A DNA stretch of 64,000 nt from Tubulanus polymorphus (taxonomy: Eukaryota; Nemertea; Palaeonemertea; Tubulaniformes; Tubulanidae). The stretch covers positions 15,954,450 through 16,018,449 of the forward strand of contig NC_134029.1 of the NCBI RefSeq assembly GCF_964204645.1, read 5' to 3'. The position numbers were made by a program, and so were the translations under genes. Positions 1 through 58,892 of the stretch are shown one piece after another (within the stretch, counting starts at the first letter, position 1; every line of letters starts with the position of its first letter). The notes beneath the pieces are model-generated. The model was given only the letters and a program-made list of their open reading frames with translations, was not told the origin of the DNA and made no database searches.

Positions 1-621
1 AATGTGATTTTTATGCATGTTGGTAGCTAAAAGTCACAGAATAATGTCATTTCTATGCACGTAGCTTGGTAAAAGTCACAGATTATCCAAGGTGAATATT
101 GTGAAAAACGCCATGGAAAATGTGAAATTTTTGAAAACTATTCAAGTTTTTCAACATAAGAATATAGAAGTATTTTTATTGAATTTTGCTGTGAAATCAA
201 ATTTGGGGGGGGGGTTACCTGTTTACCTGTTACCAGGTATTGTACTACAAAAACAAATTTGTGATAGTATACAGTAGGCTAGATCCCAGTAGACCTACCG
301 ATGATTGCACCTTATCAGCTTATAAGGTTTAGCACATCAGTTATTATCCAAGAGTTTATACATAGACCACTTGTTATATAGGTACAAGCGTGGGGTGACA
401 TGGCCACCGTGACCAAGTCACCCCAAAACAAGTAATTTCTTGATTACATTAAAGTATAAAATACCTTGCAGAAGATTCAATTTCTAAATTATACGTCACT
501 AACTAACTAATTATAATGACACATAACAATTCAGTTCCAGTGCTCATGATTACAAGTTTTTCCTACCTTAATTCCTTGACTTCACAGCGTGAGTTTGCAG
601 TCCGCCATTTTGAATATCTTC

Positions 622-2327: not shown

Positions 2328-5284
2328 AATAAATGTATTTGATTTAATCAAATTACCAAATACAAAAGGTAACAATATAAAACATTATACATTAGAACCT
2401 TTATATCTATCAAAAGATTATGATTAAAATGGTGTTATAGATATACTATATTATGAAAATCATTATATGTGGATTAAACAAATCGATTTATTTTTTAAAT
2501 CAGAAAATGATTTTGATAATAAAATATACCTATGTAGAAAATGTTTACATAAATTCAGAACTGAAAGTGCATTATTAAATCATAAACAATTATGTGAAAA
2601 TCATGATTATTGTAAATTAGTTTTACCAAATGAAAATGATAAAATATTAGAATTCAAAAATATGATTACAAAAATAATGTTCCATTTGTCATATATGGAG
2701 ATTTTAAATCATTAAATAAAGAACTAACCGATCAAGATAGAAAAGAAATATATCATAAAAGAAAGAAATTAAATTCTAATGAAAATGATTTTTCAGATGA
2801 ACCACCAATAACAAATACTATTAAAAAGATTCATCAATCAGCTGCTGCTTTCGGGTTATATATTAAATCTGATTATCCAGAACTAATCAAAAGTGAATAT
2901 TATCATTATAGAAATGAAAATGTTATTAATCATTTTTGTGACTTATTAATTGAATATGAAATAAAATTTAATGAAAAGTTAAATAAAAATATAGAAATTA
3001 TAATGACAGAAGAAGATAAAGAAGCATTTGCGTTTGCAGTTAAATGTTATTATTGTGAAAAGATATTTAATTATAAAGATAAAAAAGTAAGAGACCATGA
3101 TGATTTGAACGGAAAGTTTAGAGGCGCTGCGCATGAGAATTGTAACTTACAAGCTAAGAAAATTAACTTTGTACCAGTTATATTTCATAATCTATCAGGA
3201 TGCACATTTATCTATCAAACAGCTATGCCATAAAATAGAAGAAATCAATAATGAAATAGAAAGATTAAATTCAAATAGATCAAAAGATAAAATACCAACT
3301 TATAAATTTAAAATGTTAGCTAGAACATCTGAGAATTGTATATCATTCCAATTTGGGTGTTTAAGATTTATAGATTCATATAGATTTTTAAATAGTTCAT
3401 TAGATAACTTATCAAAATCATTAGTTGATGATGAATTAAAAATATTAAAACAACACTACCCAAATAATGATGATTTTCAATTAATGAGATATAAAGGCGC
3501 GATTCCATATTCATTTTATAAATCACATAATGATTTCAATATAACTGAATTATTAAAAGAACAATTCTATGATGAATTAAAAAATGAATATGTTAAAGAT
3601 GAAGTCTATAATAGAACATTGAATATTTGGAATCATTTTGGAATGAAAAATCATGGGCAATTAGTAGATTTATATTTAAAATCAGATGTATTATTATTAA
3701 CCGATATATTTGAAAGGTTTTAGAGATGTAAACCTAAAATATTTTAACATTGATCCTTGTCATTGTTATTCAAGTCCAGGATTAACATGGGATTGTGGAT
3801 TAAAATTTACAGATATAAAAATGGATTTGTTAACAAATATAGATCAATTATTATTATTTGAAAAATCTATAAGAGGATGAGTTTCAGGTGTATTAGGGGA
3901 TAGATATTTCAATGTAAATGATAACCCTGGATATAAGTTATTATATATAGATGCAAATAATTTGTATGGTTGGGCAATGATGGAACCACAACCTTATGGA
4001 GTATTTGAAATAAGTGAAGTTTCACAACATGAAAATAATGATAAATTTGATTGGAAGAAAAGAATCCTAGATATTGCAGATGATTCAGTTACTGGTTACT
4101 TCTTTATTGTAGATTTAGAATATCCTGAACATATTAAATTTAAACTTAGAAATCTAGCATACTGTCCAGAACATAAAACTGTAACTCATGAAGAATTATC
4201 AAGTTATCAAAAAAGAATTAAACCCGAAAATCATATTCATACAGAAAAGTTAATGGTAACTCAAGAAGATAAATATAATTATGTAGTACATTATAGAATG
4301 TTAAAGTTTTATCTAAAACAAGGAATGATCCTAAAAAAAGTACATAGTTATATTTCATTTAGTCAATCTAAGTGGTTAGAAAAATATATATATTTTAACA
4401 CCAAACAGAGAACTGAAGCTAAAACTGATTTCGAGAAAGATTTCTTCAAGTTAATGAATAATGCATTCTATGGTAAGACTTGTGAAAATATTAGAAATAG
4501 AAATGATATTGAGTTAGTAAGTAATGGCAAAAGGATAAGGCATTTACAATCATATCCTAAGTTTTTAGGTAACAGAATATTTGATGAAAATTTAGCCGCA
4601 GTTAAAATGAGAAGAACATCAATGAAATTTAATAAACCAATCTATGTTGGAGCATCAGTTTTAGAATTATCAAAATTACTAATGTATGAATTCTATTATA
4701 ATGGTTTACAACCACATTTTGGAGAAAAACATATAGAAATCTTATATTTTGATACTGACAGTTACATATTAAAGATAAAAACTAATAACATAACAGATGA
4801 TTTAAAAACATTAAAACATCATTTTGATTTCAGTAATTATCCTAAAAATCATGAATTGTTTAGCAATGATAATAAAAAAGTTCCTGGTAAATTAAAAGAT
4901 GAATTAGGTGGTGAAGAAATGATTGAATTCATCGGTATTAGATCTAAAATGTATTCATATAAAACTAAAGAACATGAAGCTAAAAAGTTAAAAGGAATAA
5001 CCAAAAGTGTAGTAGAAAAGAATATTCATTTCAAAGATTACATCAATTGTATTTTCAATGAAGAAGTTAGAAAACATAAAATGAGATGTTTAAGATCTGA
5101 AGATCATGAAATGTTTATTGAAGAAATTGAAAAGATAAGTCTAAACCCATTTGATGAAAAAAGATATATTTTAGATGATGGAATTCATACAGTTGCTTAT
5201 GGTTGCAATTTTGATGAATACTTAAAATTTAAAAGAGAAGAAACAAAAGAGAACGAGATAATGAAAAGAAGTCTAACGTGTTAA
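2328..5284 (+). pseudogene. polB: Protein-primed DNA polymerase B, 5'-truncated and broken (element 1)
   Basis: This is a family B DNA polymerase of the protein-primed (DNA_pol_B_2) type that replicates Polintons. Visible parts in order are a Cys/His zinc-binding segment near 2530-2620, an HNH-like zinc insert (3045-3150), the Exo III region ending near 3715, and polymerase motif A (DANNLYGWAM, near 3950-3980). Motif B (NNAFYGKTCEN, near 4450-4485) and motif C (YFDTDSY, near 4745-4765) follow. Compared with element 5, the first several hundred codons are missing. Frameshifts occur near 2660, 3200 and 3720, and a TGA replaces a Gly codon near 3880. From 3962 to 5284 the frame is open for 440 codons and includes all three polymerase motifs. 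It is followed closely by the small gene at 5314. Confidence 0.95.
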
Positions 5285-12930: not shown

Positions 12931-13541
12931 TTATTTTATAAATTTATATTCATATGGAAATTGTAATCTCAGTAATAATTTTGAACCTTTATTATTCTTT
13001 AATTTATTCATATATTCATCATGTAATTCAGTAGGTATAATTTGATTTTCTTCCAATGATTGTTGCATAGATTTTCTATCTTTATTAAAGAATAAAACTA
13101 GAAATCTTATATTCTCCCTAAAGTCTTTAACAATTGAATTATATTTTTGATTTAAAACCCATGTTGTTATCCCAAAATGTCTCCCAGAGAAAGCTAGGTA
13201 ACATAACTCACTTTCTCTCACTTTTGAATCATGTAAATTTTCGCAATCATCTATAATGAATAATGTATTTGATCCTTTATAAGTATCAATTGCTATTTCA
13301 TACAATTATCTAAATTTTCTTTTACTGTTTTAGGATTTAATATAATAAACTTTTTTATTTCAACTATATCCCTATTATATGTTTTATTCATTTCATAAGT
13401 AGGACAAAATAATATTATATTATCAAAATGATTCTTATAAATAGTTTCTAACAAATCTAATATGAAATGTGTTTTACCACAATTGGTTACACCAGTAACT
13501 AACATATTATGCGGTTCAAATATAAATAAATCTTTATTCAT
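12931..13541 (-). pseudogene. DNA-packaging ATPase (FtsK/HerA, A32-like), one frameshift
   Basis: The protein would be about 203 residues. The first frame (13541 to 13293) has Walker A (Gly-Val-Thr-Asn-Cys-Gly-Lys-Thr, near residues 17-24). The second (13305 to 12931) has Walker B (Thr-Leu-Phe-Ile-Ile-Asp-Asp-Cys), then a conserved Ser-Gly-Arg-His-Phe-Gly stretch and a sensor-like Leu-Asn-Gln. A one-base indel near 13300 separates them. In Polintons and related viruses this ATPase pumps the genome into the capsid. Its start overlaps the integrase stop by 8 bases and lies in CTAAATG. Confidence 0.9.
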
Positions 13542-14625
13542 TTAGTCTTTTAATTTTACTAGATAAAATCCATTCATTAAATTTATCATCGTATCCTTTA
13601 TATTTCACCAAAGAATACTTTTTTCCTTTAAGAGTTTTTGTTTTCAATACTTTTTCTATTTTGTATTCTATTTCATTTGGATTTGGTACAAGTGATAATT
13701 CTTGTTCATAGAAATAACCTAATATTTCTTCGTCTTTTAGATCTTCTAATTTATAAACAAATGGTTTAGTTAATATTATCTTTTTAATCTTGAATATTTC
13801 TTCTGTAAAATTAGGGGTATAACCTTTATAAAATGTTTTTCGATATTTAGATATTCTAACGTGTTGTCCAATTTTAAATTTAGGTTCTCCGAAATCATGT
13901 GTAACAAATGCTCCATATAAATTATTCCAAACTATTTCTGAATTATCTTCTTTTCTAGCTTGTATTGGTTTCATGTTTATAGAACTATGTTTAGAATTAT
14001 TATAACCTTTCACTAAATCATCTAACACATCGATATATTTATGTGTTTCATTAGCAGTAAAATATTTCCACATTCTAGTTTTCAATGTTTTATTAAATCT
14101 TTCTATAATAGATGCTTTTTTATCTGAATGTGTTGAAAAATAATCTACATCGTTATCAGATAATAGTTTTTTGAAATGTTTGTTATAAAATTCCTTACCT
14201 TCATCAAATTGTATCTTATCTGGAATAGCTTGTTTGAATATTGATTTAAAAGCATTTGTTACTTCTATACCAGTTTTATTTTTGATTGGAATTGACCATG
14301 CGCATCTACTGAATATGTCTATAACATTTAGTATCCAGAAATATCCTTTGTTGTATTCCTCTAAGTTCTTCATGTCAATTAAATCTGCTTGCCATTGTTG
14401 ATCGATATATGAAACCATAACTTTTCTTGTTGAATAAGTTTTATCCATTTTCTTGTGGATTTGATATGTTGGTTGATTTTGTAACCATAATCTTAGTTCA
14501 CTATATTTTATATTACCATTTTTATTATCAGATTTAATTTTATTCCATAATTCTGAAACGTTAGAATATGATACTTCACTTTCTGGGTTATAATATAACT
14601 CTCTTAAATATTGTTCTTTTTTCAT
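13534..14625 (-). CDS. Retroviral-type integrase with C-terminal chromodomain, intact
   Basis: The frame is open for 363 codons. An N-terminal region of about 75 residues is followed by the rve catalytic core. The likely acidic triad is Asp81 (Trp-Gln-Ala-Asp-Leu-Ile-Asp), Asp141 (Gln-Phe-Asp-Glu-Gly-Lys-Glu-Phe) and Glu175 (Ser-Ile-Ile-Glu-Arg-Phe-Asn-Lys). An SH3-like segment (about 255-305) and a chromodomain (about 310-360, Lys-Tyr-Lys-Gly-Tyr ... Asn-Glu-Trp-Ile) complete it. This is the hallmark Polinton integrase, which would join the element ends to host DNA. The chromodomain may direct target choice. The start is AATAAGATG rather than the usual TAAATG. An N-terminal fragment of a related gene is at 32273-32337. 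Confidence 0.95.
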   Translation of the reverse strand: MKKEQYLRELYYNPESEVSYSNVSELWNKIKSDNKNGNIKYSELRLWLQNQPTYQIHKKMDKTYSTRKVMVSYIDQQWQADLIDMKNLEEYNKGYFWILNVIDIFSRCAWSIPIKNKTGIEVTNAFKSIFKQAIPDKIQFDEGKEFYNKHFKKLLSDNDVDYFSTHSDKKASIIERFNKTLKTRMWKYFTANETHKYIDVLDDLVKGYNNSKHSSINMKPIQARKEDNSEIVWNNLYGAFVTHDFGEPKFKIGQHVRISKYRKTFYKGYTPNFTEEIFKIKKIILTKPFVYKLEDLKDEEILGYFYEQELSLVPNPNEIEYKIEKVLKTKTLKGKKYSLVKYKGYDDKFNEWILSSKIKRLNE

Positions 14626-14631
14626 CTTATT

Positions 14632-15884: not shown

Positions 15885-16514
15885 TTAGGTCATTGTTCCA
15901 TTGATCAATAAATAGTTCTTTGCCTTTGTTAACTGTTCTAAATATAACTGTAAATCTAGTTTATTAGATTTGATTTGATTTTCTTTCTTTTCAAGAGGTC
16001 TTAAATTTTTCCAACCCCAAATAAGTTTTTTATTGTATTTATCATTCATGTTAAATTTAGATATCGGTAACGTATGATCAATATGAAAGTATTCACCATA
16101 ATTATCTATATTCATTTTATCACCGAATTGAAATATAATCCATGATTTGAGAAATTCATCTGAACAACCCAACAAATTAGATAATGTTTCTGAATGTGTT
16201 TCTTTGTTGAATAATTGTGTTAATCTAGATCTTAAGCATTGTTTCAATCTAAAATTAAGATCTGTTTGATATCTTTCTCTCATATATTCTGCCATATAAT
16301 AATTATAATGTTCTATATTATCTTCTCGGTATTGTTTGGTATATAGTTTAGTGCAAGTTTTGCAGCAATATTGAAAACCATCTTTGCTAGTCTTACGGTT
16401 ACTAAATTCTGTAAATGGTTTATCTAATTCACATTTAGAACACTTCTTGTAATATATATTTATAACACCAGTGTTATTTGTAATATTGATAATTTGTGGT
16501 TGTTCTGGTTCCAT
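15885..16514 (-). CDS. HNH endonuclease-like protein with zinc ribbon, intact
   Basis: The frame is open for 209 codons, starting at AATAAATGG. Residues 23-60 carry two Cys pairs (Cys-Ser-Lys-Cys and Cys-Cys-Lys-Thr-Cys) forming a zinc ribbon. The C-terminal half has His-Ile-Asp-His-Thr-Leu-Pro-Ile followed by Trp-Lys-Asn-Leu-Arg-Pro-Leu-Glu, the usual HNH-type core in phage and large-virus proteins. A broken copy lies at 33601-34253. It could be a homing-type nuclease or a nuclease used in element replication or packaging. Which of these applies is not decidable here. Confidence 0.85.
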   Translation of the reverse strand: MEPEQPQIINITNNTGVINIYYKKCSKCELDKPFTEFSNRKTSKDGFQYCCKTCTKLYTKQYREDNIEHYNYYMAEYMRERYQTDLNFRLKQCLRSRLTQLFNKETHSETLSNLLGCSDEFLKSWIIFQFGDKMNIDNYGEYFHIDHTLPISKFNMNDKYNKKLIWGWKNLRPLEKKENQIKSNKLDLQLYLEQLTKAKNYLLINGTMT

Positions 16515-22620: not shown

Positions 22621-25600
22621 AAATTAAAATACATAAATTTAAAAATATAGTGCCATTTGTAATTTATGGGGATTTTGAATCGTTGAATAAAGAATAAAGA
22701 ACTGATCAAGATAGAAAAGAAATATATAAAAAAAGCAATTTTCAAAATCAATGGATAAAGGAAATGAACTACATGAAGATATAATTCAAGACCAACCAAT
22801 TATAAATACAATTAAAAAATTTCATCAAAGAGCTGCTGCTTTTTGAATTTATATAAAATCAAATTATCCTGAATTATATGAAAGTCAATATATTTCTTTT
22901 AGAGGTGAAGATGTAGTAAAAGAATTTGAAATAAAATAATTGAATTAGAAAGTGATTTAGCAAAATTATGAAACAAAAATAAAAGAATAGTTATGACAAA
23001 AGAAGATGAAATTGATTTTAATTATGCAACTCATCGTTGTTACTGTGAAAAACATTTTTATTCATTTGATAAAAAAGTTCAAAGAGATCAAGATCATTTA
23101 AATTCAAAATATCGTGGAGCTGCTCATGAAGATTGCAATTTACAAGCTAAGAAAGTTAATTTCGTACGAATATTATTTCATAATTTATCAGGCTATGATA
23201 CCCATCTATTTATAAAACAATTATCAGGAAAATTGGGCGCAATTAATCAAGAAATAGAAGAATATAATGCTATGAATGGTGCAAATGTAAGAAAATATGA
23301 TTTTAAACTATTAGCTAAGACATCTGAAAATTATGTTTCATTTCAATTTGGTTGCATTAGATTTTTAGATTTTTAGCAAGTCCATTAGATAATTTAGCAA
23401 AAAGTTTAGTTGATAACGATTTTATAATAACACGACATTATTATCCAAATGAACAAGATTTTAGATAATTGAGATTTAAAGGTGCAATTCCTTATTCATT
23501 TTATAAAACACATGATGATTTTTATGTAACAGAATTATTAAAAGAACAATTTTATGATCAATTAGAAGAGGAGTATGTGAAAGATGAAGTTTTAAGAGAA
23601 CATTAAATATTTGGAATCATTTTAAGATAAAAAATCATGGTGAATTAGTAGATTTATATTTAAAATCAGATGTTATGATATTGGCTGATATATTTGAAAA
23701 ATTTAGAGAAGTTAATTTGAATCATTTTAATGTTGATCCTTGTTATTGTTATTCAAGTCCTCGTTTAAACTGGCAATGTGGTTTGAAATATACAAATGTA
23801 GAATTAGATTTATTAAAAGAACCAGACATGGTTTTATTATTTGAAAAATCAATTAGAGGTGGAATTAGTGGTGTTATGGGAGATAGACATTTTAAAGCAA
23901 ATGATGAATATAAATTATTGTATATTGACGCTAATAATTTATATGGTTGGGCAATGATGCAACCCCAACCATATAAAAATTTTATATTAACAGAACTTGA
24001 AAATGATGATAAAACTAATTGGGAAAGCGCAATTATGAGTTTAGAAGATGAAGCACCAATTGGTTATTTCTTTGTAGTTGATTTAGAATATCCTGATAAC
24101 ATAAAGTTTAAAACAAGAAACTTACCATATTGCCCAGAACATTAAGCCGTAGATGATAGTTATTTAAGTGAATACCAGAAAAAAATAAAACCGAAAGATC
24201 ATGTTTTTACAGAAAAATTGATACTTACTCAAAATAATAAATATAATTATATTGTTCATTATAGGATGTTAAAATTTTATCTAAAATTAGGAATGAAATT
24301 AAAGAAAGTACATAGATATATTGAATTTAATCAATCGAAGTGGTTAGAAAAATATATAGATTTTAATACTCAACAGAGAACCATATCAAAAACAGATTTG
24401 AAGAAGATTTCTTCAAATTAGTGAATAATAGTTTTTATGGAAAAACATGTGAAAATATTAGAAATAGAAATGATATTGAATTAGTAAATAATTCTGAACG
24501 ATTAAGACATTTACAATCAAGTCCTAGACATTTAGGAAATAAAAGATTTGAAGATTATTTAACCGCGGTATAATTAAAAAGAACGACAATGAAATTTAAT
24601 AAACCTAAATTCATTGGTTCAACTGTTTTAGAAATATCAAAATTATTAATGTATTATTTTTATTATAATGTTTTACAACCACGTTTTGGGGAATAACATA
24701 TTGAAATATTATATTTTGATTCTGTAACAGCTGATACCCCAATATTATTAAAATACAATAATCAAATATTAATTAGAAGAATTTCAGAAATAATTCCGAA
24801 ACAAAATGAACTTTATATTTCATATGGTGAAAAAGAATTAATACAAATAAATGGATTAATGGATGTTTGGACAAGAAATGGATGGAAAAAAATTACGAAT
24901 ATAATTAGACTTAAAACAAATAAAAGAATTTATAGAGTTAGAACTAAATTTGGGTTTGTTGCTGTTACAGAAGATCATAGTTTAATTAGAAATAATGGTG
25001 ATGAAATAAAACAACCTGATATAAAAATTGGAGATGAATTATTACATAAGAGATTTTACCCAAGAATGAATCATATGTCATTTGATGAAATAATTGATAA
25101 TATTTATAACTTAGAACCTGAAACATTAAAAGAAAAAGAATATTTTATCAAAGGATTTTTTATGGGCGATGGTTCATCAGGTGTGTATAATTATGTTAGT
25201 CGCACTCAATATTGTTGGTATTTATGCAATCAAGATTTGAAATTATTAGAAAGAATAAAGAAATACTGTGAAGAAGTTTATTCACACAAAACATTTAGAA
25301 TCATGGATGTTATGAAATCATCAGCAGTTCATAAAATACTTGTAAATAATCCTAATGATTTTGCTATAAAATATGATGATGAATTCTATATTCATGCAAT
25401 AGTCAAAAGTAATACCTCAACAAAAGAAAAGATAGTTCCAGATTATGTATTAAATGCAAAAGATAATTTAAGAAACTGGTTCTTCATTGGATTCTACGCA
25501 GCAGATGGTGCTAAATTTACCGAGTTCTCCAGTAATAACATTTGCACAAAAAGGAAAAGTTGGTATATCAGGATTAAATATATTATGCAATTCATTAGGT

Positions 25601-26239
25601 TTTAATATGAATATTGGATTGATTAAATCTAAACCAAATTGTTTTATTCTAAGGCACACAGAAAAAGAAATAACTGAAGAAGTTAGAGATTTATTTGAAA
25701 TATATAACCCAACAGATTATGTTTATGATTTATCAACTGAAGATGGAACACTTAACTGTGGATTTCCATTAATAGTGGTCAATACGGACGTCTACATACT
25801 AAAAATCGAGACAAATGACATAACAAAAGACTTAAAAACATTAAAACATCATTTTGACTTTAGCAATTATCCAAAAGATCATGAATTATTTAGCAATGAT
25901 AATAAGAAAATTCCTGGTAAATTTAAAGACGAACTGGGGGGTGATGAAATGATTGAATTTGTTGGTATAAGAAGTAAAATGTATAGTTATAGAACAATAG
26001 ATCATGAGGCTAAAAAGTTAAAAGGAATAACAAAACATGTGGTTGAGAAACACATAGAATTTCAAGATTATAAAAAGTGTTTATATAACTCAATTGTAAT
26101 GAAACATAAAATGAATTGTTTAAGATCAGAAGATCACGAGATGAACATTAATGAAGTTGAAAAAACTAGTTTAAATCCGTTCGATGATAAAAGATATATT
26201 TTGGTTGATGGAATAAACACATTACCTTATGGCCATTAA
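22621..26239 (+). pseudogene. polB: Protein-primed DNA polymerase B with an in-frame intein, broken (element 2)
   Basis: Homology starts near the first exonuclease motif (Tyr-Gly-Asp-Phe-Glu-Ser, about 22665), so the 5' part is absent. The HNH-like zinc insert and Asn-Leu-Ser-Gly-Tyr-Asp exonuclease motif lie in 22993-23376, motif A near 23930-23960 and motif B near 24420-24460. Motif C is interrupted after Phe-Asp at 24720 by the intein and resumes with Thr-Asp at 25784. Stops and frameshifts occur near 22845, 22935, 23375, 23467, 23605, 24145, 24405, 24571 and 24694. The C-terminus is shorter than in element 1, and its stop overlaps the stop of the convergent gene. Confidence 0.9.
24721..25783 (+). 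other. Intein with LAGLIDADG homing-endonuclease domain in polB motif C, one frameshift
   Basis: The segment interrupts the polymerase between the first Asp and the Thr of the Asp-Thr-Asp motif. Its first residues are Ser-Val-Thr-Ala-Asp-Thr-Pro (block A). A block B follows with Val-Thr-Glu-Asp-His-Ser-Leu (near 24965-24985). Two LAGLIDADG-type motifs follow (Ile-Lys-Gly-Phe-Phe-Met-Gly-Asp-Gly near 25150, Ile-Gly-Phe-Tyr-Ala-Ala-Asp-Gly near 25483-25506). Block F reads Tyr-Asp-Leu-Ser-Thr-Glu-Asp-Gly, ending in Val-Val-Asn just before Thr. Length is 1063 bp, that is 354 codons plus one base, matching a single-base frameshift near 25510-25545. The penultimate residue is Val rather than the usual His, and the first is Ser rather than Cys. 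It would splice itself out after translation and cut intein-free alleles. Confidence 0.9.
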
Positions 26240-33600: not shown

Positions 33601-34253
33601 TTAAGATTCAACGTGTTTTTCATTCTGTGTTGAATTCCATAATTCAACAAATGTCTTTGCTTTATCCAGTTGATCTAAATATAATCTCATATCAAGTGTG
33701 TTCCCTTTCCTTATATTTTCCTTCTTTTCTAGAGGTCTTAAATTTCTCCAGCTCCAGATTAGTTTCTTATTATAATCATCACTCATGCAAATTTAGAAAT
33801 CAGCAACACGTGATCAATATGAAAGTATTCACCATAATTATCTATATTCATTTTATCGTCGAATTGATATATTATCCATGATTTGAGAAATTCATCTGTA
33901 CAACCCACCAAATTAGATAGTGTTTCTGAATGCGTTTCTTTGTTGAATAATTGTGTTAATCTAGACCTTAAACATTGTTTCATTTTAAAATTAAGATCTG
34001 TTTTATATCTTCCTCTCATATATACTGTCATATAATCATTATAATGTTCTCTATTATCTGCTCGATATTGCTTGGTATATAGTTTAATACAAGTTTTGCA
34101 GCAATATTGAAAACCATCGTTGCTAATCTTACGCTTACTAAATTCTGTTATAGCTAATTTATCTAATTCACATTTAGAACATTTCTTGTAGTATATATTT
34201 ATAACACCAATGTTATTTGTAATATTGATAGTTTGTGATTGTTCTGGCTCCAT
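33601..34253 (-). pseudogene. HNH endonuclease-like protein, one frameshift (element 3)
   Basis: It is a close homolog of 15885-16514, including the zinc ribbon and His-Ile-Asp-His. A frameshift near 33785 splits the HNH core from the Trp-Arg-Asn-Leu-Arg-Pro-Leu-Glu part. In this copy it follows polB closely, and its start is AATAAATGG. Confidence 0.8.
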
Positions 34254-45893: not shown

Positions 45894-48623
45894 AAAACAT
45901 TAGAAGAAAATAAAAATTATGTAGAAAATATGAAAAATATTATAAAAATAATAACTGATGTTGAATACCCTAAAATTAGTATATCTTCTAAAGTTAAATT
46001 TATAAAATCTGAAGATAAACCAATATATAATATAAATTCTCATTCACAACATATTATATCTAAACAACATATAGATGATAAATTAGATAAATGTTATAAT
46101 GAAATAAAAACTAAAATAGAAGAGAAATATTTTGAAGGATCAGGTTTAATATTTGATGAAATAATATTTATGACTTTACATGTCTATAACACAAAATATA
46201 ATAAGTTAACTAAATCAAAACCAATAGATGAAAATAATGTATCATATTATAAAGAACCAGATATTGAAGCATCGAAATATATTAAACTACCATTTAAAAC
46301 TAATGCTGTTATAAATGTACAAAATTCTGATGATAAATGTTTTCTATGGACAATTATAAGTTGCTTACATCCTGCAACTGATGATATTTGTAGATTAACT
46401 CATTATAAACCATTTGAAAATAATTATAAGATAGATAAGTATCCTGTTAGAATTAAAAATATCCCAAAAATAGAAAGAGATAATAATTTAAGAATAAATG
46501 TATTTGATTTAATCAAATTACCAAAAACAAAAGGCAACAATATAAAACATTATACATTAGAACCTTTATACCTATCAAAATATTATGATTCAAATGATGT
46601 TATAGATATACTATATTATGAAAATCATTATATGTGGATTAAACAAATCGATTTATTTTTTAAATCAGAAAATGATCACCATAAAATATATCTATGTAGA
46701 AAATGTTTACATAGATTCAGTAATGAAAGTACATTATTAAATCATAAACAATTATGTGATAATCATGATTATTGTAAATTAGTTTTACCAAATGAAAAGG
46801 ATAAGATATTAGAATTCAAAAAATATGATTACAAAAATAAAGTACCATTTGTAATATATGGAGATTTTGAATCATTAAAAAAAGAATTAACTGATCAAGA
46901 TAGAAATGAAATATATCATAAAAGAAAGAAATTAAATTCTAATGAAAATGATTTTTCAGATGAACCACCAAAAACAAATACAATTGAAAAGATTCATCAA
47001 TCAGCTGCAGCTTTCGGGTTATATATAAAATCTGATTATCCAGAACTAATTAAAAGTGAATATTATCATTATAGAAATGAAAATGTTATCAATCATTTTT
47101 GTGACTTATTAATTGAATATGAAATAAGACTTAGTAAATTATTGAATACAAATATAGAAATTATAATGACAGAAGAAGATAAAGAAGAATTTGTGTTTGC
47201 AGGTAAATGTTATTATTGTGAAAAGATATTTAATTATAAAGATAAAAAAGTAAGAGACCATGATCATTTGAATGGAAAGTTTAGAGGCGCTGCGCATGAG
47301 AATTGCAATTTACAAGCCAAAAAAGTAAATTTTGTTCCAGTTATATTTCATAATCTATCAGGATATGATGCACATTTATTTATCAAACAGCTATGTCATA
47401 AAATAGAAGAAATTAATAATGAAATAGAAAGATTAAATTCAAATAGATCAAAAGATAAAATACCAACTTACAAATTCAAAATGTTAGCTAGAACATCTGA
47501 GAATTATATATCATTCCAATTTGGGTGTTAAAGATTTATAGATTCATATAGATTGTTAAATAGTTCATTAGATAATTTATCAAAACCATTAGTTGATGAT
47601 GAATTAAAGATATTAAAGCAACATTATTCAAATAATGATGATTTCCAATTAATGAGATATAAAGGAGCGATTCCATATTCTTTCTATAAAAATCATAATG
47701 ATTTTAATAGAACTGAATTATCAAAAGAACAATTTTATGATGAATTAAAAAGTGAATATGTTAAAGATGAAGTATATAATAGAACATTGAATATTTGGAA
47801 TCATTTTGGAATGAAAAATCATGGACAATTAGTAGATTTATATTTAAAATCAGATGTATTATTATTAACTGATATATTCGAAAGGTTTAGAGATGTAAAC
47901 CTAAAATATTTTAATATTGATCCATGTCATTGTTATTCATCACCAGGATTAACTTGGGATTGTGGTTTAAAATTTACAGATATAAAAATGGATTTGTTAA
48001 CAAATATAGATCAATTATTATTATTTGAAAAATCTGTAAGAGGAGGAGTTTCAGGTGTATTAGGGGATAGATATTTCAATGTAAATGATAACCCTGGATA
48101 TAAGTTATTATATATAGATGCAAATAATTTGTATGGTTGGGCAATGATGGAACCACAACCTTATGGAGTATTTGAAATAAGTGAAGTTTTACAACATGAA
48201 AATAATGATAAATTTGATTGGAAGAAAAGAATTCTAGATATTGCAGATGATTCAGAGACTGGTTACTTCTTTGTTGTAGATTTAGAATATCCTAAACATA
48301 TTAAATTTAAATCTAGAAATCTAGCATACTGCCCAGAATATAAAACTGTAACTCATGAAGAATTATCAAATTATCAAAAAAGAATGAAACCCGAAAATCA
48401 TATTCATACAGAAAAGTTAATGGTAACTCAAGAAGATAAATATAATTATGTAGTACATTATAGAATGTTAAAGTTTTATTTGAATCAAGGAATGATGCTT
48501 TAAAAAGTACATAGATATATTTCATTTAGTCAATCTAAATGGTTAGAAAAATATATATATTTTAACAGCAAACAGAGAACTGAAGCTAAAACTGATTTTG
48601 AAAAAGATTTTTTTAAGTTAATG
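45894..48623 (+). pseudogene. polB: Protein-primed DNA polymerase B, 5' part before the retrotransposon (element 5)
   Basis: The sequence begins inside the gene (Leu-Glu-Glu-Asn), lacking the zinc-finger head. It is open from 45930 for 533 codons with a Cys/His segment (46700-46770), Exo I (Tyr-Gly-Asp-Phe-Glu-Ser, near 46858) and the HNH-like insert (47205-47320). Exo II (Asn-Leu-Ser-Gly-Tyr-Asp, near 47355) follows. A Leu codon became TAA at 47529. The frame reopens with Exo III (near 47840-47890) and motif A (near 48118-48145), and another stop comes near 48501. The insertion point at 48623 lies just before motif B. Confidence 0.95.
48620..48623. repeat. Target-site duplication AATG, left copy
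   Basis: AATG directly precedes the LTR and is repeated at 57714-57717. Uninterrupted polB in element 1 has a single AATGAATAATGC at this point, which confirms the insertion site. Confidence 0.85.
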
Positions 48624-50216
48624 TGTAGCGGAAAACGGGGGCAACACGGTGCTACCCTCTCTCTTCTAATATGGCGGTCATTCTTCTGCTCATCAATTTG
48701 CTGCTCCAATCGTCATTCATCTAATATGTCAGGAGGTCTTGAAGGTAAAATCTAAAGTCTTCCAAGCCCGCTACGGAGTTCGCTTACGTCGAATGATTTC
48801 TGGTAGTGAAACCAAAAAGGGAAATAATATTTCACCGCAAGAGATGATCCTCATGAGAAACCGAGAGAGATAAATCTATAAAACAGCCACGATTTGAAAA
48901 TTATAGTCTGCTATGTTAAGATCGTGCATACCGAGCACGAATAGCCTATTTTCCGGTATACGGTTATCCTCAGCAACATGTATCTTACATGCCCGTAAGG
49001 CCCACAGCATATAATTGAGTTGGCCACCCCAAATTATACCTGGATCTACCCTACATTCGACCGGTCTATAGAATAATCCCGTAACCCTCACTTCATACTA
49101 ATGGCAGTCCAAAATCCTACCATAGATTCTCCCACCTATGGGCTGTAGGCTCAAAGTCCCTACTAAATAGTCCTCTGCTATTCGTCTCCACCATTTCAAT
49201 CTTGTCAAAAAGCTGATATCATAAATAATTTTTCCTCAGTCCTTATTAAGGTTCTGACCATTCTCAATAGATAAGTCTGAAGCCGCAAAAAAATACTGAA
49301 TCTAATTATTAATTTATTAAAGTCATACTTTCTTATTATAATTCAAAGTGAATAAATATTAGGTTAATTCTACTATATAACTTATTCTTTTCTTTATCGA
49401 ATCTACCGTCTAAGTATCTCGTAAAAGAACAAAAACCTATTACGTAAACGTATTATCATATAATTCGAATCGACAATCAAATCACGCAAATACGGTTCGA
49501 AGAGTAAATTAATGGAAGTTCAGACAAATCCAAGCTGTCAATCACAATCATCGTTGAAAACGATAAAAAGGAGACGGCCGGCCTGACTGACTTATTAATT
49601 ATCAATAGTGAACCGATTACGTGAATGTCGGTCAGCCCGGTCAAAGACCGGAGCTGACCGACGAATCAACTGATGCTTACCAAGTCTGGCTGTCAACTGC
49701 CAAACTGAAATGATGGGAGTCAATACGACCGGTAAAACAGTTAATATCGTTAAATAATGATAATCGGTTGACCCCAGCATCTCAGCATGACAACGGGCAG
49801 CTCAGCCTGGTAACCCCACCCCGCTAGCCCAACAACTGACATGACAACCGACACACCAGCTGATAGCGCCGCCACTCGCGTGCCACGGACACTACCAGCA
49901 TGATTAAAATTTACGGATACTTAGCCGGTTAAAAATACACATTTTAAGTAAGTGATCCCACCCCCTATACAACATATCAATACACAATATCTATATACAG
50001 TATACATCTTAAATTCAACAAAAGTAAATAGAGTAACATCTAACAAACCTATCCCGCCCCCCTCTAAATATTATTCCATTCAATTCAATTCAATACATTT
50101 GAATAAATACATACAATTGCACAGACGCTACAATATCAATACACGAAAATTCTACATATTATTCAATTCAATTCGATTTAATACATTTTAATAAATACGA
50201 TTGCACAAACGCTACA
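48624..50216 (-). repeat. 3' LTR
   Basis: 1593 bp, flanked inward by the purine tract. It is near-identical to 56120-57713. The small open frame it contains (Met-Arg-Val-Thr-Gly) occurs in both LTRs and is probably not a gene. Confidence 0.95.
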
Positions 50217-50231
50217 CTACCCCCCCCCTCC
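50217..50231 (-). promoter_or_regulatory. Polypurine tract of the retrotransposon
   Basis: On the minus strand it reads GGAGGGGGGGGGTAG directly before the 3' LTR. It is the usual primer for plus-strand DNA synthesis. Confidence 0.85.
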
Positions 50232-50281
50232 AGATCTGGACGTCCTCGTCCAGAAAATAACTATATTACATAACAATTTAA

Positions 50282-50992
50282 TTAAAACTTCTTCTTCAAA
50301 ATAGTACAAAATTTACACTCCACCTTGCTTCCTACCGGATAAACTAAGACAAATTCCCCCCCCCCCCCAAACATCTCGCCAACGTGCCTGTGTTCGATCA
50401 TTTTCTTTCTCGGGTCCGACGTCACATCTACTGGTATTAACGGAATTGTCCATGGCTTAGCATCTCGCTCTGACGTTTTTGGTCGCAACTTTTCTGTTGG
50501 AATAAATTTCTGCGGACTGTTGAAAGGACTTAGGCTCGGCGTCACTACGGTCGTTTCTTCTTTCCAGTTTCCGGTAATTTCTAATAGTTCCTCGATTGAT
50601 ACTTCAGGTACTTCAATTATAGGTTCTGACTGTGTTTTCGTTTCCATCGGAACTTTCTGTACTACTGAACAAGGAATTGCAGGTAATAATTCTCTCTCAC
50701 ACCGTTCCGTTTGCTCTACTGTTCGTATAAATCGGCTTGAATGCCCTTTGACTGCATTCAAATCTTTCGGATGACTTTTCTCTACATGTTCCTTCATCAG
50801 GCTCACTCGATGCGAATTGAATACGCACAGCGTGCACTGAAATAATCGGGTATCGGATATACCAACGTTCTCTTTTCTCGACGCTTTATTTCTGCAGTTC
50901 CTTAGATGCTTTCGTTTATTCGTGCCTTCCGATAATGATCGCAAGCAGTATGAACATTTCCACAGTCTCTCGAACGTAGGAGCCATTTTCAT
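50282..50992 (-). CDS. Extra ORF of the retrotransposon: C2H2 zinc-finger protein
   Basis: 236 codons start at an ATG just 25 bp after the integrase stop. Residues 13-35 carry Cys-X2-Cys ... His-X3-Cys. Residues 53-75 carry a classic Cys-X2-Cys ... His-X4-His finger, and a Cys-X2-Cys lies near the C-terminus. The middle is Ser/Thr/Pro/Glu-rich and likely disordered. There is no signal peptide or membrane span, so it is not an envelope gene. It could bind nucleic acid or modify host silencing, but the role is unknown. Confidence 0.75.
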   Translation of the reverse strand: MKMAPTFERLWKCSYCLRSLSEGTNKRKHLRNCRNKASRKENVGISDTRLFQCTLCVFNSHRVSLMKEHVEKSHPKDLNAVKGHSSRFIRTVEQTERCERELLPAIPCSVVQKVPMETKTQSEPIIEVPEVSIEELLEITGNWKEETTVVTPSLSPFNSPQKFIPTEKLRPKTSERDAKPWTIPLIPVDVTSDPRKKMIEHRHVGEMFGGGGEFVLVYPVGSKVECKFCTILKKKF

Positions 50993-51016
50993 TAAGCTAA
51001 AAAAAAATATAAATTA

Positions 51017-51586
51017 TCACATCTCAGTTATCCACCGGCGTGGCTTTCGTACTACCCGGCCCCCTCTCGTTGTCTGTTCGCTTGAGGTCACGAACTCTTC
51101 ATCTTGGACCGTATATTCTTCATTATTCTCGCTATCTTTAGTTGCCATATATGGCTTTAATCTGTTAAAATGTACTGTCTTTTCTACCCCTTCATCTGGT
51201 AATTGTATTCTATAAACTACATCATTTACTTCCCCCTTCACTATACAGGGTCCTATCCACCTATTCGATAATTTCTTCGATCGACCTTGTGGAACCATCG
51301 GCGTGAATAACCACACTAAATCATTGATTAAATATTTACTACTCTTCGTTTTGATATCGTAATTTTTCTTATTTCTTGTAGCTTTACGCCCGGTGTGAAC
51401 ACGTACTTCCTTGAATGCCTGTTCCAGACATTTACTCAAAGAATTGATGTACGCGGTATAAGATTTCTCTACATGAGAAGACGGTCCACCCACAGTTACA
51501 TCATTCGGCAAATCTACCTCGCTACCAAGCATCAAGTGATTAGGAGAATAACCCGTAACGTCATGTTTTGTGGCTCTGTACGCCAT
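51017..51586 (-). pseudogene. pol: Integrase C-terminal part of pol, frameshifted from the main ORF
   Basis: 190 codons start with Met-Ala-Tyr-Arg-Ala-Thr, the region just after the integrase core. They contain the GPY/F-type module (Leu-Ser-Asn-Arg-Trp-Ile-Gly-Pro-Cys, then Tyr-Arg-Ile-Gln-Leu) and His-Phe-Asn-Arg-Leu-Lys-Pro-Tyr. In intact Ty3-type elements this is continuous with the core. Here a small indel near 51610-51640 puts it in another frame. Confidence 0.85.
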
Positions 51587-51605
51587 GGTTACATAAGGTA
51601 AGCAT

Positions 51606-54600
51606 TCATCCCAAATCCTCTTGATCGTCCTGTATTGTCATTGCTAAACAATTTAGTAGGGTTCTATTGAATCGTTCAACCAATCCATCAGACTGTGGGT
51701 GATACGCGCAAGTTCTCATCTTCTTTATCTCCAATAATACACATAATTCTTTCATCAATCTAGATTGAAAGTTAGCACCTTGATCCGTATGAATTATTCT
51801 TGGCACCCCAAACCTCGATATAAATTCTTCAACTAATTTACACGGTACAGTTTCTGCGCTCTGATCTGGTAAAGCATAAGCTTCTACCCATTTCGTAAAA
51901 TAATCGCAAACTACTAAAATATAGGTCATTCCATTGCGTGAAGTCGGTAATGGACCCAAAATATCCATGGCTATTCTTTCCATTGGAAGACCCACTCTGT
52001 ATAACTGTAGGCTAGCTTTTGGTTTCACTGCTGGTGTCTTTCGAGCACCACATACAAAACAACACAAGCAGTGCATTCTTACATCTTGCCGGATGTGATG
52101 CCAATAAAAACGGCCGTGCACTCCTGTTAAAGTTTTACGAATCCCTAGATGTGCCGCAGTTATAGAGTTATGTAAACTGTGTAAAACTTCTTCTCTATAA
52201 TCTTTCGGTAATAATAGTAAAATGGATTCACTAAATCCTTCTCTCTGTTTACAGATATATAAAACATCATCTATAATCTTTAACTGTTGCCACCGAGCCC
52301 AATAAAACTTAGCATCTTCGCCTAATTCGCTCACATCAGACCATTCTGGTTTGCTATTGCTTTCTATATACGGAAATATCCACTTGAACTCCGGATCATT
52401 ACGTTGAGCTTGTGAGATATTCATAGATAGCCAATGGCCCTCTGGAGCGAATTGACTATACGTATATCGAGTTTCTGTTATATCTTGTTCCGATACTAAG
52501 TTATTTATATTACTCTCTCTCATTTCATTACAGGTACCCTCGTTCTTTCTTGTTATACGATCACATTGTATGCATTCTTGTCTGGATAATGCATCGGCAT
52601 TACCATGATTCTTGCCGGGCCTATGGATGATCTCAAAATCGTAAGTGCTTAATACGGATATCCACCTCGCTATCTGTCCCTCTGGTTCTTTAAATGACAT
52701 TAACCACTTTAAAGAAGCATGATCTGTTCTTAAAGTGAAACGCTTGCCCATCAAATAGTATTTAAAATGTTTAATGTACGATACTACAGCCAGCAATTCC
52801 CGTCTCGTTACACAATAATTTCTTTCAGGCTTGGCTAACGTACGACTTGCGTATGCTATCACTCTTTCTTTTCCATCCTGAATTTGCGACAAAACTGCTC
52901 CTATACCAGTATTGCTAGCATCTGTGTCTAGTATAAAAGATATGTTCGGGTCTGGATATGCCAATATAGGGGCTGTCGTTAATAATTCTTTGATCTTTGT
53001 AAAAGCCACGTCACACTCAGGTGACCACTTAAATTCTTTGCCTTTTTCTGTAAGCGTATATAAGGGTTTAGCTATTGAAGCGAACCCTTTACAAAACGAA
53101 CGATAATAGGAGGCTAATCCCATAAAAGAACGCACTCCCGACGGAGTTACTGGCTGAGGCCATTCTTTGATTGCTTTAACTTTCGCTTCTGTACAAGCAA
53201 TGCCTTGGTCTGACACTACATGCCCTAAAAATTCAATACTACTTTTGAAAAAATGACATTTCTTAGGCTTGAGTTTTAACCCCGCGGCTCGAAGGCGCTC
53301 CAAAACTTTCTCTAAATTCATCAAAGTTGATTCGAAATCTTTGCCAAATATAATGACATCATCTAGATAAACTAGGACTATGTCGTTCAATAAGCCTTCC
53401 AGTACTCTCTCCATAAGTCTCTCAAAAGTAGGACCACTATTTTTGAGACCCATAGGCATTTTTCTTAATTGATATAAACCTTGCGGTACTACAAAAGCAG
53501 TCTTTTCTTTGTCTTTAGGCGATACCGGAACTTGCCAGTAACCTGCCTGAAGATCGGCTCCACAGAAATACTTGGCTCCCGATAAAGACCTTATCGTATC
53601 ATCAATTCGAGGTAATGGATAGGAGTCTGATACTGTACATTCGTTCAAAGCCCGATAGTCTAGGCAAAATCTAAGGTTACCATCTTTTTTAGTCACCAAT
53701 ACTATTGGACTGCTCCATGGTGACTGACTATTCTCGATCACTTTAGAATCCATCATATCTTTCAAAAGTTTATCTAATTCTACTTGTTTCGCTAATGGTA
53801 AACGCCGAAATCGTTGTTTGATAGGCGGCGTTGAACCTGTATCTATAGTATGGTAAACTCCTTTCGCTTCCCCTAAATCCGTATCTGATTTCGCAAATAC
53901 ATCCGCGTATTTCACAATTGAATTTCGCACTTTTCTAGCTTGTTCCGGGCTCAAACCATCGCAACTACGCTTAATTAAGTCTTCTAGATATTCTAAGGAT
54001 TCTTTACTCTCTACTTGATTAACTTGATCTGATTTACCACTTGCCTCTTCTCGTGACCATATAGCTCTTACCCTTGATATTTTAGCCATAGAGGTATTTT
54101 TATACAATACTCTCGGCTGATCGCCTAAATTTACGATTCTAACTAATATCTGTGATTTTTCCGTGTCCACTACACTACGTGCTACACACATTTCAGGGCC
54201 TAACTTCCAATTGTGGTTCGATTCCACCATCGCCCACTTGCCTAAGTACTGTTTATCTTTCTCGTCGATATAGCCCGGCACCGTTATTTCAGATAAAGGC
54301 GGGACCTTAATTCTGTCTGTTGATCTAATTAATATTGCGTTCTCGTGAATAGGCGCTATTGGCTCCTCATGCATTTGATGACCTTGACAAGTCACCGTAC
54401 GCTGTTTTAAATGGATATGACAATCATATGCTGTCAGAAAATCCATTCCGAGAATTGCATCTTCTTTAATTTCGGCCACTATCACTTCCCAAGGTATATT
54501 TTTACCAAATAAGCCTAAGGGAATGACCGCTGTACCTCTCACTCTAATACTACTATGATCAGCTGCATAGAGTCGTATAGTTGATTGTTCTAATTTTATC

Positions 54601-54878
54601 TTGTGATTCTTTATAATTTCAGTATACAAACGATTACTGATGATTGTGTTATGAGCACCGGTATCTACCAGATACTTCACAGACACTCCGTGTACTACTG
54701 CCGAAAAATAAATCGCCGATTGTGATTTATCATTTTTGGACAGTACGTATACTTTAGAATCATCTTTCTTTTGTCTATTTTCAATCTCTAAATTCTTTGG
54801 GAGACTTGATTTATTTACTCTAGCCGAACCTACTCCCTTTTGAACGGCGCGGGAGAGTTTAAAGGCTGCTGTGTACAT
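51606..54878 (-). CDS. pol: Pol polyprotein: protease, reverse transcriptase, RNase H, integrase core
   Basis: The main frame has 1090 codons. The aspartic protease motif Val-Asp-Thr-Gly-Ala is at residues 71-75. The reverse transcriptase catalytic Tyr-Leu-Asp-Asp is near residue 505. The RNase H first Asp (Leu-Asp-Thr-Asp-Ala-Ser) is near 651. The integrase zinc domain (His-X-His ... Cys-X2-Cys) is near 890-935. The catalytic Asp, Asp and Glu are near 971, 1027 and 1068 (Met-Asp-Ile-Leu-Gly, His-Thr-Asp-Gln-Gly, Val-Glu-Arg-Phe). The ORF overlaps gag by 49 bases in the -1 frame. It ends early through the frameshift described for 51017-51586. Confidence 0.97.
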   Translation of the reverse strand: MYTAAFKLSRAVQKGVGSARVNKSSLPKNLEIENRQKKDDSKVYVLSKNDKSQSAIYFSAVVHGVSVKYLVDTGAHNTIISNRLYTEIIKNHKIKLEQSTIRLYAADHSSIRVRGTAVIPLGLFGKNIPWEVIVAEIKEDAILGMDFLTAYDCHIHLKQRTVTCQGHQMHEEPIAPIHENAILIRSTDRIKVPPLSEITVPGYIDEKDKQYLGKWAMVESNHNWKLGPEMCVARSVVDTEKSQILVRIVNLGDQPRVLYKNTSMAKISRVRAIWSREEASGKSDQVNQVESKESLEYLEDLIKRSCDGLSPEQARKVRNSIVKYADVFAKSDTDLGEAKGVYHTIDTGSTPPIKQRFRRLPLAKQVELDKLLKDMMDSKVIENSQSPWSSPIVLVTKKDGNLRFCLDYRALNECTVSDSYPLPRIDDTIRSLSGAKYFCGADLQAGYWQVPVSPKDKEKTAFVVPQGLYQLRKMPMGLKNSGPTFERLMERVLEGLLNDIVLVYLDDVIIFGKDFESTLMNLEKVLERLRAAGLKLKPKKCHFFKSSIEFLGHVVSDQGIACTEAKVKAIKEWPQPVTPSGVRSFMGLASYYRSFCKGFASIAKPLYTLTEKGKEFKWSPECDVAFTKIKELLTTAPILAYPDPNISFILDTDASNTGIGAVLSQIQDGKERVIAYASRTLAKPERNYCVTRRELLAVVSYIKHFKYYLMGKRFTLRTDHASLKWLMSFKEPEGQIARWISVLSTYDFEIIHRPGKNHGNADALSRQECIQCDRITRKNEGTCNEMRESNINNLVSEQDITETRYTYSQFAPEGHWLSMNISQAQRNDPEFKWIFPYIESNSKPEWSDVSELGEDAKFYWARWQQLKIIDDVLYICKQREGFSESILLLLPKDYREEVLHSLHNSITAAHLGIRKTLTGVHGRFYWHHIRQDVRMHCLCCFVCGARKTPAVKPKASLQLYRVGLPMERIAMDILGPLPTSRNGMTYILVVCDYFTKWVEAYALPDQSAETVPCKLVEEFISRFGVPRIIHTDQGANFQSRLMKELCVLLEIKKMRTCAYHPQSDGLVERFNRTLLNCLAMTIQDDQEDLG

Positions 54879-55876
54879 TGTCTTGCTATATGACCTTTCT
54901 GCTGGCAGTTATAACAAACTACGTTATTACTTGTTCTATATGGTGTTGACTGAGATTTATAATTATTTCTGCGACTATTGCACATACGTCGCACATCCTC
55001 TCTTAAACTCGCCATTTCTTTCTTAAGCTCAGAAACCTCATCTGAAACTATTGCTTGTCTTACATATGTTTCTCTTGGAAATCTATCATTCGATGATTCC
55101 ATCATATATATACTTTCTAAACGTAACGCGTATGAGATTAATTCATCAAAACTCTTTACATCTGATTGCCATAATCTCATTCTCATTTCACCATCGGACA
55201 ATGCTTCGATGAAATGCGTTCTGGCTAGCTTGTCTCTTTGCACCAAAGAGAATTCAGGATATGCTTGAGCACACAGAATTGTTACTGCTTGTCCCAATTC
55301 TTTTTAACTTTCGTGTCTCTTGCGTTTTCGATTGCGCAGTTCGGCCAGATGAACTTCCGCGAAATCCCCTGGACCAAATCTTGCGTCTAAAATCTTACAA
55401 ATTTCTTGATACTCTAATCTTTCCGTGTTAACCAGCTTAGTACAAACTAGTTGCCTAGCCGCGCCTCGTAATGAAGCGAATAAGAAGTCGGCTTTAACAT
55501 CGTTTGACCAGTGATTAAGTCTTGCTACTGTTTCAAACCCTAATCTGTAATCTTGCCATGATCCGTCACCTGAATAATTTTCTGGTTTTATCTTACAGAT
55601 CACGTTTGGTTCTACATTACGGGAACTGGAAGAACTTGTTCTACCTACATCCGCCGAACCACTACTTTGAGACCACGTTCCATCTTGACTCTCGCCAGAG
55701 AACGTTTGGCCTGTCGGATTACTAGTCATACTAGACCGATACGACGCGGACTTGCTAACAGGACCTACATCACCTTGAACTATTATAGACGTCTCGTTAT
55801 TCACAAGACCGTCTGGACTTGATAAATCTTCCGAACTTTTACTACGCATAATTCGAGCGCGCGATGCACGAGTCAC
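54830..55876 (-). pseudogene. gag: Gag protein with CCHC zinc knuckle, one in-frame stop
   Basis: The frame runs from at least the ATG at 55849 (open further upstream to a GTG at 55876) to the TAG at 54830. A TAA at 55304-55306 interrupts it in frame, and both halves are otherwise open. The first half has a Ser-rich head and a retrotransposon Gag-like helical region. The second half carries on the helical region and has the knuckle Cys-Tyr-Asn-Cys-Gln-Gln-Lys-Gly-His ... Cys near 54870-54925. Total length would be about 345 residues. Confidence 0.9.
54857..54863 (-). promoter_or_regulatory. -1 ribosomal frameshift slippery heptamer
   Basis: On the minus strand T TTA AAC lies in the gag-pol overlap, with gag read as TTA AAC, exactly the phase needed for a -1 slip into pol. 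TTTAAAC is a known efficient slippery sequence. Confidence 0.8.
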
Positions 55877-56099
55877 AGGATAACTCTTTTTTTTTTGCTG
55901 ACTTGTACGACTTCGAATCTGTATAAAATACGAAGTCTAAATTGTATGTCCTTGTTTAAAACTTAACTACATATACTACTTAATGCAAAACTTATCGACT
56001 CAGGGAACAGGTCAGAATCTACTTAAATATGTATCTGTTATGTTGCGAGGCTATATGAAAAAAATTATTATCTCTCAATCTGGAATCTCAAAAAGAATC

Positions 56100-56117
56100 A
56101 TCCCACTTCTGACACCA
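56100..56117 (-). promoter_or_regulatory. Primer binding site of the retrotransposon
   Basis: The minus strand reads TGGTGTCAGAAGTGGGAT two bases inside the 5' LTR. The leading TGG complements a tRNA CCA end. The sequence resembles Leu-type tRNA sites, but the identity is not certain. Confidence 0.75.
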
Positions 56118-56119
56118 AT

Positions 56120-57717: not shown

Positions 57718-58892
57718 AACAATGCATTCTATGGTAAGACTTGTGAAAATATTAGAAATAGAAATGATATTGAGTTAGTTAGTAATGGTAAAAGAATTAG
57801 ACATTTACAAACATACCCTAAATTTATAGGTAACAGAATATTTGATGAAAATTTAGCTGCAGTTAAAATGAGAAGAACTTCTATGAAATTTAATAAACCA
57901 ATTTATGTTTGAGCATCAGTTTTAGAAATATCAAAATTACTAATGTATGAATTTTATTATAACGTATTACAACCTCATTTTGGAGAAAAACATATAGAAA
58001 TCTTATATCTAGATACGGATGCGTACATATTAAAGATAAAAACTAATAATCTAGCAAATGATTTAAAAACATTAAAACATCATTTTGATTTCAGTAATTA
58101 TCCTAAAGATCATGAATTGTTTAGCAATGATAATAAAAAAGTTCCTGGTAAATTCAAAGATGAATTAGGTGGTGAAGAAATGATAGAGTTCATTGGTATT
58201 AGATCTAAAATGTATTCATATAAAACTACTATGAAATTTAATAAACCAATTTATGTTTGAGCATCAGTTTTAGAAATATCAAAATTACTAATGTATGAAT
58301 TTTATTATAACGTATTACAACTCATTTTGGAGAAAAACATATAGAAATCTTATATCTAGATACGGATGCGTACATATTAAAGATAAAAACTAATAATCTA
58401 GCAAATGATTTAAAAACATTAAAACATCATTTTGATTTCAGTAATTATCCTAAAGATCATGAATTGTTTAGCAATGATAATAAAAAAGTTCCTGGTAAAT
58501 TCAAAGATGAATTAGGTGGTGAAGAAATGATAGAGTTCATTGGTATTAGATCTAAAATGTATTCATATAAAACTAAAGAACATGAAGCTAAAAAGTTAAA
58601 AGGAATTACCAAAAGTGTAGTAGAAAAGAATATTCATTTCAAAGATTACATCAATTGTATATTCAATGAAGAAGTTAGAAAACATAAGATGAGATGTTTA
58701 AGATCAGAAGATCACGAGATGTTTATTGAAGAAATTGAAAAGGTTAGTTTGAATCCATTTGAGGATAAAAGATATATTTTAGATGATGGTACACACACAG
58801 TCGCGTATGGTTGCAATTTAGATGAATATCTAAAGTTCAAAAGAGAAGAAACAAAAGAGAAGGAAATAATGAACAGGATTATAACGTGTTAA
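57718..58892 (+). pseudogene. polB: Protein-primed DNA polymerase B, 3' part after the retrotransposon (element 5)
   Basis: It resumes with motif B (Asn-Asn-Ala-Phe-Tyr-Gly-Lys-Thr). Motif C (Tyr-Leu-Asp-Thr-Asp) occurs twice because 348 bp are duplicated in tandem. A Gly codon has become TGA at 57910 and again in the second unit at 58258. The second unit has also lost a base near 58322. From 58464 the frame is open to the end at 58892, with a C-terminus like that of element 1. Confidence 0.9.
57883..58577 (+). repeat. 348-bp tandem duplication inside polB
   Basis: Unit 1 is 57883-58230 and unit 2 is 58231-58577. They are almost identical and share a TGA, so the stop predates the duplication. 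The second unit lacks one base. The unit length is a multiple of three. Confidence 0.95.

Follow-up and report, generated by a model that had tools for sequence, protein, structure and literature searches.

The window analysed here is a stretch of 64,000 nucleotides from the nemertean Tubulanus polymorphus (C5:15954450-16018449; positions without a contig prefix count from its first letter). On its plus strand, inside a Polinton-type DNA polymerase, lies a frameshifted intein with a LAGLIDADG homing endonuclease (24721..25783), recognised by reading of the open reading frames (ORFs) and by profile matches. The initial annotation had the segment split polymerase motif C between Asp and Thr-Asp, and by codon its coordinates are exact: Asp (GAT) occupies 24718-24720, Ser1 24721-24723, the terminal Asn (AAT) 25781-25783, and Thr (ACG) starts at 25784. 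The N-extein, a PF03175 polymerase, covers 23588..24720, and the C-extein, with the remainder of motif C (Thr-Asp) and the polymerase C-terminus, 25784..26239. The intein begins Ser-Val-Thr-Ala-Asp-Thr-Pro, carries the block B motif T-E-D-H with Thr83 and His86 (24967..24978), LAGLIDADG motif 1 with Asp150 (25141..25176) and motif 2 with Asp262 (25477..25509), and closes with a C-terminal splicing region of blocks F and G (25721..25783) ending Val-Val-Asn. The segment thereby shows the residues of a class 1 intein, which are an N-terminal Ser or Cys, a block B TxxH, a C-terminal Asn and Ser, Thr or Cys at +1.

The segment had been taken as a single run of 354 residues, which proved incorrect. 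The N-terminal part and the endonuclease are read from ORF 24697-25605 and the C-terminal part from ORF 25472-26239, the frame changing within their overlap (25472..25605). Since the intein is in two frames and the upstream polymerase holds in-frame stops, this is a dead copy, a decayed and broken member of its intein family, and its pieces were used separately as queries. In the profile searches, proposed earlier as a check, NCBIfam TIGR01445 (intein_Nterm) scored 29.4 bits in the window copy and 32.7-33.5 in three uninterrupted copies from the same genome, with a cut-off of 24.5. Pfam Intein_splicing matched the window copy (E=4.9e-5, 23.6) and the three uninterrupted copies (29.3-30.8), all below the gathering threshold of 35.8. 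LAGLIDADG_3 stayed below its gathering threshold of 22.5 in the window copy (E=0.005, 17.5) and exceeded it in the three uninterrupted copies (26.3-32.7).

We consider it very probable that the element is a full-size PolB motif-C intein, spliced out of the Polinton-type polymerase and spread by its own endonuclease, of which the window holds a decayed copy. Its sequence, its fold (on a relative), its copy number and its distribution were established directly, and splicing and DNA cleavage are deduced from conserved residues and selection. According to this scheme the intein would be translated as part of the polymerase and excised by class 1 splicing through Ser1, the block B Thr and His, the terminal Asn and Thr+1, rejoining Asp to the Thr-Asp-Ser/Ala of the polymerase catalytic site. 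The double-LAGLIDADG endonuclease would cleave this site in copies that lack the intein, and the intein would be copied in as the cut is repaired.

Copies, constraint and relatives

Searching the genome (267.8 Mb, 77 contigs) with the intein brought up 766 candidates, of which 130 were scored; besides the window intein itself these include 129 listed matches, which are 79-88% identical to it, and ORFs of 1,686-1,690 amino acids hold 11 of the 130. Intact copies elsewhere, which the initial annotation had suggested looking for, are thus present as open frames in this genome, and related inteins exist elsewhere. Exact sequence patterns, which give lower bounds and returned nothing when reversed as a control, counted 235 in-frame occupied C-junctions, a further 15 one base shorter, and 510 intein-free motif-C sites. 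Those Polinton polymerase sites that were listed sit in the inner part of large contigs, for example at about 12.5-22 of 32 Mb on C1, as if clustered near centromeres.

Listed intein copies occur in Polinton context on every contig from C1 to C12, and an assembly artefact is rejected on this ground. It argues equally against contaminating DNA from a giant virus or a protist, in whose favour one could cite that a survey of eukaryotic inteins (PMC5784728), in the part of its text available, names no animal intein; to either kind of error we assign a negligible probability. Contig C6, one of the twelve, also carries ten homeodomains on one strand (C6:5318228-5634747, 61-95% identity to an Antennapedia homeodomain query), which we read as a Hox cluster and its host as a bilaterian animal. 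Searching the genome with an arthropod cuticle query, with no positive control run alongside, gave no match. Profiles, relatives and the Hox-bearing assembly therefore agree with the original proposal of a homing-endonuclease intein in a Polinton-type polymerase of an animal.

Of 60 sampled copies, L005 and L023 lacked a recognisable C-junction and were left out; among the remaining 58, 39 inteins measure 1,065 bp (355 residues). Residue retention and selection were analysed in a set of 62 copies, whose junction pattern demanded Asn355 and Thr+1 and left Ser1, Thr83 and His86 free. Thr83 and His86 are nevertheless kept in all 62, Ser1 and Asp150 in 61 and Asp262 in 60. Over the intein as a whole, the ratio of nonsynonymous to synonymous substitution (dN/dS) is 0.22. 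The two splicing parts stand at 0.20 and 0.17, the LAGLIDADG helices at 0.04, and the polymerase on either side of the intein at 0.05 and 0.12. Constraint and retention together are in keeping with both splicing and endonuclease having functioned recently. The strands that follow each LAGLIDADG motif, which touch DNA in known enzymes, evolve faster in protein (dN 0.09-0.17 versus 0.01), and the hairpin dN/dS values of 0.75, 0.56 and 0.31 are raised, none above 1.

The residues preceding the terminal Asn are variable (QK, AV, CF, AK and others), and the penultimate one is Lys in 43, Val in 11, Phe in 7 and Ala in 1 of the 62 copies. Codons 353-354 rank third and fifth of 555 codons in nucleotide diversity among 39 copies, often as swapped pairs (CAA-AAA, GCN-GTC, TGC-TTC, GCC-AAA). 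This variability, and the excess of intein-free over occupied sites (510 versus 235), would suit an alternative in which the intein now splices poorly and its carriers multiply in trans, using polymerase made by the plentiful copies that lack it. We regard that as improbable, given the purifying selection on splicing parts and polymerase flanks, the full-length open frames among the listed matches, and the fact that Lys is the commonest penultimate residue among relatives. In 120 relatives with both junctions it is Lys in 88 and His in 12, so that the Ser1 and the missing penultimate His, once described as atypical, are the family norm. That count required Ser1; in a search freed from this requirement every aligned start directly after the motif Asp was Ser-Val or Ser-Ile.

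The fold was modelled on a relative, P0004, and not on the window copy: the model reached a predicted local distance difference test (pLDDT) score of 91.6 and matches solved inteins over 12..358, a predicted Hint fold seen via this relative. A first model, based on only 9 sequences, scored poorly (pLDDT 48.3) and was set aside. P0004 belongs with the inteins of other Polinton-type polymerases (P0009-P0013 and P0016), which share the site D/S...N/TD (slashes mark the junctions), are 41-63% identical to the query inteins and form one tree group. P0004, P0006 and P0010 retain the block F His and the penultimate His, unlike the genome copies read here, which have neither. The archaeal PI-PkoII, a Thermococcus polymerase intein (PDB 2CW7), differs in its 537 residues and is 21% identical to the model.

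The Mimivirus PolB intein matched the query across the whole intein (E=1.6e-50) and has the same insertion site; by this homology and the Asp/Thr insertion point the element is assigned to the PolB motif-C intein family. Inteins at motif C of giant-virus PolB, in Mimivirus and others, resemble it in their site (YGD/S...N/TDS), length class, Ser1, penultimate Lys and LAGLIDADG domain. They differ in their host polymerase, PF00136/PF03104 rather than PF03175, and in their side of the tree, and we know of no multi-copy integration of such inteins, though no search aimed at it was made. In the unrooted tree 17 Polinton-type and 58 PF00136-type inteins lie on opposite sides of one branch (Shimodaira-Hasegawa approximate likelihood ratio test 100), so the Polinton-type inteins appear to form a lineage of their own and of long standing, and a recent jump is disfavoured. 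The same-site kinship is compatible with the suggested exchange with large DNA viruses, which may have run in either direction. Scans of viral contigs found one weak locus in one scan and none in another, and a scan of prokaryote contigs found no match.

Proposed movement between two Polinton subfamilies

A tree of the upstream extein, built from 62 intein-bearing and 32 intein-free copies (94 in all), separates two Polinton subfamilies. In B 61 copies are occupied and 4 free, in A a single copy (L041) is occupied and 28 are free, and the starred branches force at least 3 state changes. Genome-wide, the exact patterns gave 222 occupied and 6 free sites in B, against 17 occupied and 440 free in A; one of the six free B sites, C6:22327774, is apparently the intein copy L005 with an altered last codon. 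Subfamily B is close to fixation for the intein, which has also made its way into several backgrounds of subfamily A. L041 is 77% identical to the other 57 copies in its exteins and 89% in its intein, the means among those 57 being 93-94%. An ungapped comparison of its upstream flank (0.49-0.89 to A, 0.53-0.54 to B) was spoiled by an indel and uninformative, so that the aligned tree took its place.

Of the 17 occupied A sites, L041 and L011 were already in the sample, and the other 15 were examined by their upstream flank; 10 were readable, nine with an A-type and one with a B-type flank. Of the 10 readable occupied A copies, 9 have A-type sequence on both sides of the intein. These A-type flanks represent several haplotypes, and two show 100% identity with copies free of the intein across 109-110 bp. 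Synonymous divergence (dS) is lower in the intein (0.20) than in the flanks (0.40 and 0.31), and pairwise distances agree less well between the intein and either flank (rho 0.25) than between the two flanks (0.44). Together with L041, these results support a spread of the intein between polymerase backgrounds, of which we infer homing to be the simplest cause.

Several results weigh against the proposed homing intein. Searched on its own, the window ORF hit none of the inteins with solved structures (PDB, best E 0.34) and nothing in PHROGs. A penultimate His, though its absence is common in the family, was found in 0 of 58 sampled copies and in none of the 100 junctions listed of 235. The downstream extein tree (79 rows) needs 2 changes, of which only 1 is forced, and dS is uneven within the intein parts (0.12 to 0.55). 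Low occupancy in A indicates that any homing there is weak or recent. In L140 and L011, finally, the upstream flank is B-type and the downstream flank A-type; these recombinants imply that ordinary recombination also occurs, and with hundreds of similar Polinton copies templates are plentiful. A genuine intein could thus have been moved between subfamilies by ordinary repeat recombination rather than by its endonuclease, an explanation we hold to be unlikely: the nine copies with A-type sequence on both sides would each need two exchanges tight around the intein, and the catalytic Asp residues and helices are strongly constrained.

The outcome for covariation between endonuclease and target counts on the same side as these objections. 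Among 190 codons scored in the 62 copies, intein codons 160-162 showed the strongest covariation with the extein +3 codon (Fisher p=2e-10; 1e-8 within Ala codons, splitting GCG and GCC), with a codon grouping chosen after inspection of the data. Pairs of copies independent on the tree gave a mean of 6.4 concordant and 0 discordant of 9 (median p 0.03), and for Ala codons 4.7 concordant and 0 discordant of 6 (p 0.06). A held-out set of 40 more copies, from C1-C3 of the occupied-junction list and readable in 30, did not confirm the association (W with AGT or GCG 10, W with other codons 5, non-W 8 and 7, p=0.36; Ala codons only 6, 5, 2 and 7, p=0.16), and coevolution of endonuclease and target was dropped as a claim. 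The strong first covariation probably reflects relatedness among copies chosen for their likeness to the window copy. Synonymous diversity of the +1 Thr codon ranks first of 197 in the 32 intein-free copies and second of 498 in the 62 intein copies, with ranks of 18 and 11 (intein-free) and 48 and 51 (intein) for the +2 and +3 codons; hypervariability of the target codons is suggestive only. We view as a doubtful speculation an arms race within one genome, in which DNA-contacting hairpins would diversify over fixed helices, Polinton polymerases would swap synonymous cut-site codons to escape, and several specificities would coexist.

Polinton setting of the window

Motif C is uninterrupted in further polymerase copies of the window, as first reported: one on the plus strand at 3881..5284 (YFDTDSY from 4745) and one at 58311..58892, also on the plus strand (YLDTDAY from 58353), with a second partial copy that shows the same motif from 58006. 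Here 57976-58275 is repeated at 58323-58622, 347 bp apart, a local duplication of the intein-free motif-C region. The same repeat array holds a Polinton-type integrase on the minus strand (13534..14631) with an rve and a chromo domain, the latter below cut-off, and a PF03175 polymerase together with an rve-chromo integrase in repeated elements identifies Polinton/Maverick elements. Another polymerase copy of the array contains an Endonuclease_7-like domain; a Pfam search of the window ORFs tried gave no capsid match. Polymerase homologs include a transposon-derived protein of Stylophora, and a Pfam intein domain occurs in 2 of the best 120 of 4,098 homologs, the query itself being one. A Polinton-like polymerase recorded under Sulfurimonas sp. 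(P0137) probably represents a contaminated bacterial record.

At 48620-57713 a long terminal repeat (LTR) retrotransposon interrupts the polymerase of another Polinton copy, with reverse transcriptase, ribonuclease H and integrase in ORF 51606-54908 on the minus strand; its two LTRs, about 1.6 kb each, are 99.4% identical, indicating a recent insertion. A free-standing protein with paired CxxC and an HID-type motif is present in two copies (15885-16514 and 33783-34253) and looks like an HNH endonuclease from these motifs; a Pfam search of the 15885-16514 protein found no match at E<=0.01.

Published inteins and significance

For eukaryotes, the available text of the survey PMC5784728 places inteins in the nuclear genomes of fungi and in chloroplast and viral genomes, and it lists Prp8 inteins from some protists as well. 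A preprint (PMC11071308, citing Jeong 2023) states in one sentence that diverse homing endonuclease domains occur at different positions in polinton pPolBs and suggests intein invasions; the likeness to our case lies in homing endonuclease domains within polinton pPolBs. This kind of intein is thus already known and its presence in Polintons hinted at in print. A literature search whose coverage excluded most subscription papers showed no animal genome reported to carry an amplified intein, and the amplification in an animal, with the homing deduced for it, appears new.

One animal genome holds more than 200 copies of the intein, and animal Polintons are linked to the giant-virus intein pool. 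Hundreds of occupied and empty sites in a single genome constitute a natural experiment on homing, on the way a selfish intein spreads within a family of transposons, and on the escape of target sites.
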